In this document: positions 14,451 to 17,372 of the stretch, piece after piece | Numbering within the stretch: the first letter of the stretch is position 1 | Layout: every line of letters begins with the position of its first letter | NCBI GenBank assembly: GCA_000525675.1 | Contig: CP002190.1 | Span: 2,046,001-2,110,000 of the forward strand | Reading direction: 5' to 3' | Length of the DNA stretch: 64,000 bases | From: Bdellovibrio bacteriovorus W | GTDB taxonomy: Bacteria; Bdellovibrionota; Bdellovibrionia; Bdellovibrionales; Bdellovibrionaceae | Notes under the pieces: generated by a model | Database searches by the model: none | The model's input: only the letters and a program-made list of their open reading frames with translations | What the model was told of the DNA's origin: nothing | Made by a program: the position numbers and the translations under genes

Positions 14451-16073
14451 ATGAAAAGAAGAGATTTCCTAAAAAATTCCGCGCTCCTGACAGCTGTTTC
14501 TTCCCTGCCTTTAAAGTCCTTAGCTCAAGGAACTAAGTGGGCAGCAACAAAACTTCATGATGACATGCCGATTGCTAAAATTGAGAACTCTCAGTTTAAC
14601 AGCGTGGATTTTAATGGCGATGATATTGATCGCCCCCACGATCTTCTTTGGAATATAGATGGATACATCGCTAAAAAAGGTGGCGAGCCTTCAGTCACAG
14701 AAGATCTTGATGTAGCCATTATCGGTGGCGGTATGTCGGGATTGATTTCGGCACACTACTTAGGAAATAAAAAAATTGCTGTCTTTGAGGGTGACCGCCG
14801 ATTCGGTGGAAATTCTAAGGGTGAACAATATAAAGACTCTACCTACAGCATTGGTGCGGCTTATATCTGTGAGCCTGAAAAAGACTCTGCTATTGAAAGT
14901 CTTTTAAGCGATATCAACGTCCTTCGCCATGGACGCCTTGAAGATGGCGCTGACACTTCGGTTTTTCATCAAGGGCGCATTCACAAACACTTCTGGGCTG
15001 GAGCCACGGCGCCGAGTGCTAAAGCTCAATACGCTAAAATATTTCAACGCCTCAACGAAATCTACAACGATTCTGATTGGGATTGGCAAGGTGACTTTGC
15101 AAAGTCCATCGACAACCTCAGTTTTGAACAGTGGTTGCAAAAAGAATTTGGCGATGTCCATGAACACATCAAAGAGTACTTTCAACTTTATGGCTGGAGT
15201 TCTTTCTGTGGCTCGATCAGCGAGATCTCGGCTTTTCAATTCTTAGGTTTTATTGCCGCGGAAACTGAAAACATTATGGCCTTCCCTGGTGGAAATTCTT
15301 TTATTACTCAAGGCTTAGTGCGCTCTTTGCGCCAACGCCATGGTCACAGTGCTTTGCGCTCAGGAGCATTTGTACTGAGAGTGGAAGCTCAGAGTGACTC
15401 TGTGACGGTACTTTATGAAAACAATGTGGGTGAACTTGTAAAGGTTCGTGCAAAGCATGCGATTATGGCTTGTCAAAAATTTGTGGCTCGCCGATTACTT
15501 CCACAAATGTCAGAAGTTCAAGGAAATGCGATCCACTTCCTCCCTTACCGTGCTTACCTCGTAGGAAATGCGATCCTTAAGAAAAACTTCCAAAGCCCCA
15601 GCTATGAACTTTTCCAAATCAAAGGGAAGATGCCAAAGGACCCCACTGCAATGAATCGTGGAGATCGCACGTTTACGGATATCTGCTTTGGTTCATGGGC
15701 GGAAAAAGATCAAAACGAACACAGTGTACTCAGTCTTTACCACGGGATTCCTTACGATGGCGCTCGACAATTTCTTTTCAGCCCGATGTCGCATGATAAG
15801 TATCGTGAGAAGTATGAGACTGAACTTAAAACGATTCTTCCAGGCTTGGGAATTTCTGAGAGTGATTTATTAGGGCTTCGCCTCACTCGTTGGGGACACT
15901 CGCTACCACTATCACAAAAAGGGCTTCTAGCTTCTGGACAAGCCGCTCTGGCCAGTGAAAGCATCTTAGGGCGCATTCACTTTGCCAACCAAGATAACTG
16001 GATGAACCCGTGCTTTGAAACAGCTCAAGAAGTGGCAGAAGCTGCGACCTCTCTGATTTTAGAAAATATTTAA
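14451..16073 (+). CDS. Tat-exported FAD-dependent oxidoreductase (amine-oxidase fold)
   Basis: 540 residues. The N-terminus MKRRDFLKNSALLTAVSS carries a twin-arginine motif (RRDFLK) and a hydrophobic stretch ending SLAQG, so the folded protein is probably moved to the periplasm with its cofactor. Residues about 85-130 form the dinucleotide fold: DVAIIGGGMSGLISAHYLG, the Glu of VFEGDRRFGGNSKG, typical of NAD(P)-binding Rossmann-like flavin amine oxidases. The C-terminal part has WGHSLPLSQKG and IHFANQDNWMNPCFETA, which fits the second FAD contact. Substrate unknown. Single gene between two terminators. Confidence 0.8.
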   Translation: MKRRDFLKNSALLTAVSSLPLKSLAQGTKWAATKLHDDMPIAKIENSQFNSVDFNGDDIDRPHDLLWNIDGYIAKKGGEPSVTEDLDVAIIGGGMSGLISAHYLGNKKIAVFEGDRRFGGNSKGEQYKDSTYSIGAAYICEPEKDSAIESLLSDINVLRHGRLEDGADTSVFHQGRIHKHFWAGATAPSAKAQYAKIFQRLNEIYNDSDWDWQGDFAKSIDNLSFEQWLQKEFGDVHEHIKEYFQLYGWSSFCGSISEISAFQFLGFIAAETENIMAFPGGNSFITQGLVRSLRQRHGHSALRSGAFVLRVEAQSDSVTVLYENNVGELVKVRAKHAIMACQKFVARRLLPQMSEVQGNAIHFLPYRAYLVGNAILKKNFQSPSYELFQIKGKMPKDPTAMNRGDRTFTDICFGSWAEKDQNEHSVLSLYHGIPYDGARQFLFSPMSHDKYREKYETELKTILPGLGISESDLLGLRLTRWGHSLPLSQKGLLASGQAALASESILGRIHFANQDNWMNPCFETAQEVAEAATSLILENI

Positions 16074-16094
16074 TCTGACCGTGATACAGAACTA

Positions 16095-16134
16095 AGAACC
16101 CACTTTTAAATCTAAAAGTGGGTTCTCTTATTTT
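16095..16134. terminator. Rho-independent terminator
   Basis: Fourteen-bp perfect stem AGAACCCACTTTTA/TAAAAGTGGGTTCT with a 4-nt loop, followed by CTTATTTT. Ends the flavoprotein gene. Confidence 0.88.
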
Positions 16135-16208
16135 AAACTTATCAGAACACCCGTCCTACAAATCTAGCGGACGCCATTTTACCTGGAACGACTTTAAAAC
16201 TAGGTCCT

Positions 16209-16251
16209 TAAAATGCAAAAGGAGACTTACGCCTTCGCAGAGTCTCCTTTT
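16209..16251 (+). promoter_or_regulatory. possible -10 and 5' hairpin of a small-peptide transcript
   Basis: TAAAAT at 16209-16214 could be a -10 box; a weak TGGAAC lies 19 bp upstream. A start near 16220 would put an 11-bp perfect stem at the 5' end: AAAAGGAGACT (16217-16227) with AGTCTCCTTTT (16241-16251). Read on the minus strand the same stem is followed by TTTTGCATTTT and could end an antisense RNA. Confidence 0.4.
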
Positions 16252-16265
16252 GGATGGAACTTGTC

Positions 16266-16287
16266 CGACTTCCTAAAAAGGAGGTCG
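16266..16287 (+). promoter_or_regulatory. hairpin that sequesters the SD of the 32-aa ORF
   Basis: CGACTTCCT (16266-16274), loop AAAA, AGGAGGTCG (16279-16287). All nine positions pair, one as G-U. The 3' arm is the complete SD AGGAGG, five bases before the ATG at 16290. Opening this stem would be needed for efficient initiation. Confidence 0.7.
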
Positions 16288-16289
16288 AT

Positions 16290-16388
16290 ATGATAACCAC
16301 ACAGTTGTCTATTCGGCAGATTCTAGAAATTGTTAAGCTTCTTTTAGAAATAATAGCGGCTTTATTCGATTTAGTTCGAAGTTTATAG
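16290..16388 (+). CDS. 32-residue amphipathic/hydrophobic peptide, TisB-like candidate
   Basis: Thirty-two codons, MITTQLSIRQILEI at the start and ALFDLVRSL at the end. The middle is almost only Ile, Leu, Val and Ala with single Lys, Glu, Asp and Arg spaced to give one charged face, so a short membrane-active helix is predicted. Size and pattern resemble type I toxins such as TisB, but I claim no homology. An ideal SD lies in a 9-bp hairpin; a stronger hairpin precedes it. It sits in a 480-bp gap between convergent genes; the rest of the gap (16389-16556) shows no ORF and no clear terminator. Could be fortuitous; the SD and its occlusion argue otherwise. Confidence 0.5.
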   Translation: MITTQLSIRQILEIVKLLLEIIAALFDLVRSL

Positions 16389-16556
16389 ATATCTAAACTC
16401 CGGCACGTTTCTGAGTTCAACTTAGGACCAGGGAAGGGACTTTAAATCCCCTCGGACTTATGTTCCAGCGACTTTGCGGAGGCACCCACTTAAATAAACC
16501 ACCGTAGAAGAAAGCAGGATTGTACTTAAAAGGCATTGCATTTCTCACCCAAAAAT

Positions 16557-17372
16557 CTACTTCGTGCGCCTGAAGTCATCAACGAGCACTTGAATGCTCC
16601 AAACGGTCAAAAATAAAATCAATGAAGGATAAAGCAATAGGTGCGGAAAACTTGAAAGAGTCTTCCATCCTTCGCGCACTAAGATGCCCCAGCTTGTATC
16701 CGGCGGATGAATGCCTAAACCGATGAAGCTCATGAAACTTTCGTACAAAATATTTGTTGGCACTTGCATGGCCATCATAATCAACACAGTCCCTGCAATG
16801 TGCGGAAGAATATGCTTTAAGAGTATATGACTTTGCTTGCCGCCAAGAGCAATTGCCGCCTCTACGAAGGGTCTGCGTTTAAGCTCTAAAACCATTCCGC
16901 GACTAACACGCGCAAGACTCATCCAATGAGTTGCAGAGATGCCCAAGCACAGACTTAAGAGTGCCTTCATAAAATCATTTTCAATGGGAAGGGTTGCATT
17001 CAAAGTTAGGCACAATACCGAAACTAAAATGAAACTCGGTATCGCCATAAGAATGTCACAAAGGCGCATCAAAACCTTATCAGTATTCCCTTCATACCAA
17101 CCTGATAAAACTCCGTAGGTCACTCCAAAGGCCACAGATATAAACGAAGCAATCAAACCCACCAATAGAGAAACTCTTCCACCTGCAAGCACGCGAGCAA
17201 AAAGATCGCGCCCCAAGGAGTCCGTTCCAAACCAAAAGCGAGATTGGGAGCCCTCTAAAATATGTTCAATATTTTGTTCTAAACCTGAGCCTGCAAAGAG
17301 CGGATAGAAAATCACTGCTAGCAAGAGAAGCCCCAGATAAGTCATAGCGAGATAAGAGGATCGTTTTTTCAT
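16557..17372 (-). CDS. ABC transporter permease, OppC/DppC family
   Basis: 271 residues, about six membrane segments. Starts with the short N-terminal helix typical of OppC-type permeases, then SRFWFGTDSLGRDLFARVLAG, a hallmark of the family, and the EAA loop EAAIALGGKQSHILLKHILP that contacts the ATPase. Works as a heterodimer with the OppB-type permease, whose 3' end overlaps this start by 4 bp. Imports peptides or nickel-like solutes in known relatives. No ATPase or solute-binding protein gene is adjacent, so those parts must come from elsewhere. Confidence 0.88.
   Translation of the reverse strand: MKKRSSYLAMTYLGLLLLAVIFYPLFAGSGLEQNIEHILEGSQSRFWFGTDSLGRDLFARVLAGGRVSLLVGLIASFISVAFGVTYGVLSGWYEGNTDKVLMRLCDILMAIPSFILVSVLCLTLNATLPIENDFMKALLSLCLGISATHWMSLARVSRGMVLELKRRPFVEAAIALGGKQSHILLKHILPHIAGTVLIMMAMQVPTNILYESFMSFIGLGIHPPDTSWGILVREGWKTLSSFPHLLLYPSLILFLTVWSIQVLVDDFRRTK

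Follow-up and report, generated by a model that had tools for sequence, protein, structure and literature searches.

A 32-codon open reading frame (ORF) that lies between two convergent genes of Bdellovibrio bacteriovorus W, preceded by a Shine-Dalgarno (SD) sequence folded into a hairpin, raises the question of whether it is a chance arrangement or a genetic element with its own mode of control. The window (the whole stretch of DNA analyzed) comprises 64,000 nucleotides of contig CP002190.1 (positions 2,046,001–2,110,000, forward strand). The ORF runs on its plus strand from an ATG at 16290–16292 to a stop codon at 16386–16388, and the flanking genes occupy 14451–16073 (plus) and 16557–17372 (minus). 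The SD sequence is contained in a 9-bp hairpin (16266–16274 with 16279–16287, loop AAAA), and an upstream stem of 11–12 bp is formed by 16216–16227 and 16241–16252. A strong two-way terminator is located at 16094–16127, between the element and the gene at 14451–16073. A sequence-only reading had described the ORF between convergent genes, both hairpins, and a T-rich run following the upstream stem on the minus strand, all of which are present at this locus, and had proposed type I toxin–antitoxin logic. The latter gains support from comparison of related copies, in which peptide conservation, hairpins, strand asymmetry of the stem, and a minus-strand motif are consistent with the view that the element is probably a chromosomal, multi-copy type I toxin–antitoxin locus of a new, order-confined family. 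Its features are as follows.

16203–16216, plus: predicted sigma54-type promoter, GG (16203–16204), 10 nt, GC (16215–16216); from family conservation
16210–16252, minus: predicted antisense terminator, a 12-bp stem (16241–16252/16216–16227) followed by TTTTGCATTTT; from covariation and AC:GU bias
16210–16303, minus: predicted antisense antitoxin RNA of about 94 nt; from the candidate promoter and terminator
16228–16487, plus: predicted toxin mRNA of about 260 nt, both ends approximate; from the promoter position and the edge of the end-pairing strand
16231–16244, plus: 5′ strand of the 5′–3′ long-distance pairing (GCCTTCGCAGAGTC); from the swap test and GU:AC asymmetry
16256–16274, plus: switch strand, pairing with the SD sequence (via 16266–16274) or with the 3′ tail (16452–16466); covaries with both
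16279–16284, plus: SD sequence AGGAGG, 3′ arm of the SD hairpin; from sequence, covariation, and folding
16290–16388, plus: predicted toxin-like peptide ORF, 32 aa (MITTQLSIRQILEIVKLLLEIIAALFDLVRSL); from family conservation and codon comparison
16292–16309, plus: start-codon hairpin, GATAAC (16292–16297) with GTTGTC (16304–16309); from covariation
16310–16337, minus: candidate FliA-like promoter, CTTAA (16337–16333), 16 nt, GCCGAATA (16317–16310); from the motif and codon usage
16452–16466, plus: 3′ UTR segment able to pair with the switch strand; from covariation, and present in the full-length minimum-energy fold
16470–16483, plus: 3′ strand of the 5′–3′ long-distance pairing (GACTTTGCGGAGGC); from the swap test and GU:AC asymmetry

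A Multi-Copy Family in the Order Bdellovibrionales

The element is one copy of a unit of about 280 bp that recurs with the same order of parts. The window genome has four copies, the others being located at 942676 (+), 1227348 (−), and 557338 (−): a DNA search of the genome with the surrounding 350 bp identifies two further loci (72–75% identical), and the fourth copy was added by a covariance model of the 5′ part of eleven relatives. Of the 141 genomes of the order, 31 contain matches to this first model. A second one, based on 52 copies and run on 369 genomes of the phylum, gives 143 matches in 44 genomes (up to eight per genome), all within Bdellovibrionales, and none in the 228 phylum genomes outside this order, which double as a control for false positives. 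Because the same order of parts is found at three other loci of its own genome and in 44 of the 369 phylum genomes, the element is more than a chance arrangement. On this comparison, it is a member of a previously unrecognized family of about 140 copies that is confined to the order as far as searched. Of sixteen further copies that were held out and retrieved with the 5′ model alone, all but a few decayed ones have a peptide of the same family.

Distribution within the order is uneven. One same-genus genome, G006, which we take to be that of the commonly studied strain B. bacteriovorus HD100, has no match. A locus in another genome (L128, G016:C10:125800–132500) has three intact copies within about 4 kb, separated from each other by unrelated genes, and at L127 a further stem similar to the antisense terminator lies downstream of the copy, after the 3′ tail, and is possibly a remnant copy. 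In an exact-pattern scan of GTDB contigs, L040 is the sole one of 61 matches recognized as a true copy, and its sequence is that of the same-genus genome G010; the other matches that were printed are apparently chance matches inside genes. No phage or plasmid copies were found by tblastn with one family peptide, and no viral contigs matched one DNA pattern.

Copies are intergenic: in none of 73 does a single long open frame span the element, and 30 of the 73 lie between convergent genes, more than in any other setting. This setting, together with the opposite orientation of the next gene in the window and the lack of any Rfam match, makes it barely credible that the short ORF following a structured RNA is a leader peptide or part of a riboswitch controlling a downstream gene.

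The encoded peptide is 30–43 aa long in most copies (32 aa in the window) and has a polar N-terminus, a core resembling [FILY]RR[IVF]L..[IAT]K, and a tail rich in Leu and Ile. Over 23 independent pairs of copies, pN is 0.175 and pS 0.376, with pN lower than pS in 22 pairs, and differences at the first, second, and third codon positions number 186, 97, and 255, respectively, most falling at the third. The peptide is under purifying selection, as judged from these codon comparisons. After residue 10, 62% of residues are Ile, Leu, Val, Met, or Phe; the net charge averages +5.7, and the mean hydrophobic moment exceeds that of shuffled sequences by a z value of 2.0, which is consistent with an amphipathic helix. 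The conserved hydrophobic peptide anticipated by the sequence-only reading is therefore borne out by family conservation and the 22 of 23 pairs, and a small, mostly hydrophobic peptide of less than about 60 aa under selection is one of the features of type I toxin–antitoxin systems as a kind. No match was found in Pfam, NCBIfam (none above the cut-off), or PHROG.

The conserved RR[IVF]L core reflects selection at the protein level, which is expected equally of a useful protein, and the product might instead be a non-toxic small membrane protein made under stress and regulated through the folding of its RNA and by an antisense RNA. We consider this unlikely: the element is patchy in distribution, multi-copy, and frequently decayed (16 of 80 copies were set aside as truncated, altered, or incomplete), and an mRNA kept inert by folding, combined with antisense RNA, is a known means of controlling peptides that harm the cell. 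A toxic peptide remains the preferred reading.

Pairing Between the Ends of the Plus-Strand RNA

The plus-strand transcript is predicted to start about 12 nt past the GC of the promoter motif and to end just beyond the end-pairing tail. Its two ends are complementary, a property that the sequence-only reading had overlooked, as it had the sigma54-type promoter and the existence of a multi-copy family across the order. In swap tests on the 64 intact copies, the duplex between the 5′ end and 3′ tail of the same copy averages −25.4 kcal/mol, compared with −16.9 kcal/mol when tails are exchanged, and the helix has a mean length of 13.4 bp. In the held-out copies, the corresponding values are −21.4 (own) and −14.9 (exchanged). 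The two strands change together, from the GCCTTCGCAGAG type to the GGGTTTCCCCATC type, and non-Watson–Crick pairs are 82 GU and 6 AC, as against 301 GU and 223 AC in swapped controls. This excess of GU over AC indicates that selection for end pairing acts on the plus-strand RNA. End pairing also forms in 57 of 64 full-length minimum-energy ensembles computed from the predicted start. Long-distance 5′–3′ pairing, which characterizes hok/Sok-like and aapA/IsoA-like systems, is a property of this family. A separate candidate, pairing of a 5′ GGTCC with a 3′ GGACC, was rejected in that it has no covariation.

Complementary ends, multiple intergenic copies, and frequent location between convergent genes are also features of miniature transposable elements, for which the complementarity would represent terminal inverted repeats. 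The repeats, however, vary among the copies of one genome and yet remain complementary, and their mismatches are GU rather than AC, a preference that a DNA repeat would not show. The conserved unit extends 28 nt past the 5′ repeat, and the ORF is under purifying selection; a transposable element is therefore very improbable.

Local hairpins in the same RNA are supported by similar tests. The switch strand gives −14.6 kcal/mol with its own SD sequence and −11.8 kcal/mol with swapped ones, and −18.0 and −14.6 kcal/mol, respectively, with own and swapped 3′ tails. Because it covaries with both partners, the 5′ arm of the SD hairpin is regarded as a switch strand. The start-codon hairpin averages −8.0 kcal/mol within the 64 copies and −5.8 kcal/mol when arms are swapped. 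SD locking, as proposed previously, is thus upheld by covariation of the SD and start-codon hairpins. In folds of 3′-trimmed mRNA, the SD sequence and the switch strand remain paired, and folding therefore gives no account of how a trimmed mRNA would become translatable.

These structures suggest the following course of expression. Transcription from a sigma54-type promoter would yield the ~260-nt mRNA, whose product would be a short membrane-type peptide that is amphipathic and carries a net positive charge. The 3′ end, once synthesized, would anneal to the extreme 5′ end as well as to the 5′ arm of the SD hairpin, leaving the mRNA inert and in need of 3′ trimming for translation, as in hok and aapA.

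A conserved 3′ UTR motif resembling CTCCAACGTGT (in the window CTCCGGCACGTTT, 16396–16408) follows the stop codon in most copies, and in plus-RNA folds it is slightly less paired than average. Two roles for this motif were rejected: as a −35 box it has no −10 element at a fixed distance, and as a general anti-SD sequence it pairs only in the folds of some copies and is without covariation in the swap test.

Candidate Antisense RNA and Putative Promoters for Alternative Sigma Factors

The arms of the upstream stem covary (−18.7 kcal/mol own, −9.8 kcal/mol swapped), and the stem can fold in either strand (−18.7 kcal/mol plus, −20.2 kcal/mol minus). Read in the plus sense, its non-Watson–Crick pairs are 36 AC and 9 GU (190 and 156 in controls), and positions 15–23 have no GU at all. 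AC in the plus sense corresponds to GU in the minus RNA, so that this excess indicates that the stem acts in minus-strand RNA. The case for an antisense terminator is strong, if not conclusive, as part of the bias may be imposed by the promoter, which constrains the 5′ arm. Beyond the stem, the minus strand continues with TTTTGCATTTTT, which is broken solely by the GC that the sigma54 site requires.

The stem straddles the predicted mRNA start site, and its substitution pattern favors the minus RNA. The earlier view that it lies at the 5′ end of the mRNA is probably wrong. A related alternative holds that the stem is a hok-like metastable hairpin at the 5′ end of an mRNA whose promoter is located further upstream, with no antisense RNA. 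Folding in both strands and the ability to compete with end pairing, as in hok, would suit such a hairpin. The bias of stem substitutions toward the minus RNA (with the same reservation about the 5′ arm), the lack of a conserved promoter upstream of the GG, and the start of the end-pairing strand at the predicted sigma54 start all argue against it, and we regard it as rather improbable, somewhat more so than a non-toxic product. An antisense terminator is the reading followed below.

Within the ORF, the minus strand carries a motif, TTTA[G/A]-N16-[CT]CGA[AT][TA]A, at a fixed position across the family. The experimentally mapped FliA consensus of Bdellovibrio is TTAAG-N16-CCGATA (PMC3627812). 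The 16-nt spacing and the CGA match in nearly all copies, whereas exact CCGATA is found in 10 of 64, most having CCGAAT. The first conserved Arg of the peptide is encoded by CGG or CGA in 52 of 58 copies, whereas the next Arg uses them in 4 of 34 and they make up 15.5% of the Arg codons of flanking genes. This difference indicates that these rare codons are forced by the minus-strand motif. The motif is also kept in 18 of 19 copies that have no upstream CGA, its possible pairing partner in the mRNA. A gene for FliA is present in the window genome, and FliA may be the factor that uses this conserved motif. A sigma70-type antisense promoter was rejected, as the best minus-strand scores are no higher than those of shuffled sequences.

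The strand asymmetry of the stem and the promoter-like signal inside the ORF support the antisense RNA ending at the upstream stem that had been predicted earlier. This RNA of about 94 nt would start in the ORF at the FliA(sigma28)-like promoter, would be complementary to the start codon, SD sequence, and 5′ end of the mRNA, all of which its predicted extent spans, and would terminate at the stem overlapping the toxin promoter; this RNA would silence the toxin mRNA.

The putative plus-strand promoter is identified by its position and conservation. GG-N10-GC is the −24/−12 layout of sigma54 promoters. Of 80 copies, 71 have this exact form, and alternative spacers from 6 to 14 are found in none. 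Conservation starts abruptly at the GG (96–97%), continues through ten variable or A-rich positions to the GC (94–96%), and no fixed position is found across copies upstream of the GG. The motif thus has the elements of a sigma54-dependent promoter at −24/−12, and the start predicted from it, about 12 nt after the C, coincides with the edge of the end-pairing strand (element positions 25–29). The window genome has one RpoN gene, but because RpoN is nearly universal in the order (99 of 103 good genomes), its presence tests the assignment only weakly. From the conserved motif, we infer use by sigma54. The FliA assignment is less certain than that of sigma54 because most copies have GCCGAATA rather than GCCGATAA as the antisense −10 element.

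Across copies, the region upstream of the sigma54 motif yielded no general activator site, and shared sites were rejected after a weak TCCGAAA enrichment proved to come largely from one genome. Copies of G043 (L158, L159, and L161) share direct repeats (TTCGGAT ... TTCGGACA) located some 65 and 45 nt upstream of the GG; these are possible sigma54-activator sites of that genome and are not general.

In Bdellovibrio, FliA has been reported to regulate the attack phase globally. If sigma54 polymerase makes the toxin mRNA and FliA directs the antitoxin RNA, the toxin/antitoxin balance might track the predator life cycle, a tentative proposal that we think falls slightly short of evenly balanced.

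Relation to Known Type I Systems

The closest likeness in working is to aapA/IsoA of Helicobacter pylori, which has a short membrane peptide, co-transcriptional SD-sequestering hairpins, 5′–3′ long-distance pairing, an antisense RNA (predicted here), and multi-copy chromosomal loci (PMC6733600). In the working model for aapA3, hairpins mask the SD sequence during transcription, the full-length RNA is closed 5′–3′ and inert, and 3′ truncation activates it (PMC6733600). Unlike that system, the element belongs to a different phylum, has sigma54-type and FliA-like promoter motifs, and has a predicted antisense terminator overlapping the toxin promoter; no sequence relation was detected, the peptide having been compared with family libraries only.

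With hok/Sok of plasmid R1 and enterobacterial chromosomes, the element shares 5′–3′ pairing of an inert full-length mRNA, an antisense RNA near the 5′ region (predicted here), and multiple copies, whereas it has no Hok/Sok homology and no visible overlapping mok-like frame, and its predicted antisense RNA covers the SD sequence and start codon directly. No Rfam match, including hok/Sok, was obtained at the gathering threshold or at E values up to 5. As there is no Rfam match and the peptide has no family, the element appears to be convergent in working and a member of neither hok/Sok nor aapA/IsoA.

The E. coli tisB/IstR-1 system is similar in that TisB (29 aa) has regularly spaced charges on a hydrophobic helix face, that an inhibitory structure occupies the 5′ UTR, and that toxin transcription is under alternative regulation, which is SOS in tisB (PMC8309996). 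It differs in that tisB is under SOS/LexA control and uses a standby site, and IstR-1 is divergent rather than cis-antisense over the start codon; there is no sequence relation.

In the open-access literature searched, no type I toxin–antitoxin system has been described for Bdellovibrio or its order, although other papers may hold one. HD100 (the presumed identity of G006) apparently does not have the element, which may be why transcriptomes of this strain missed the family. If the proposed reading is true, this family of about 140 copies would represent a further origin, separate from the hok and aapA lineages, of inert-mRNA control through end pairing; it would also provide a sequence-level case of a toxin and its antitoxin placed under two alternative sigma factors.
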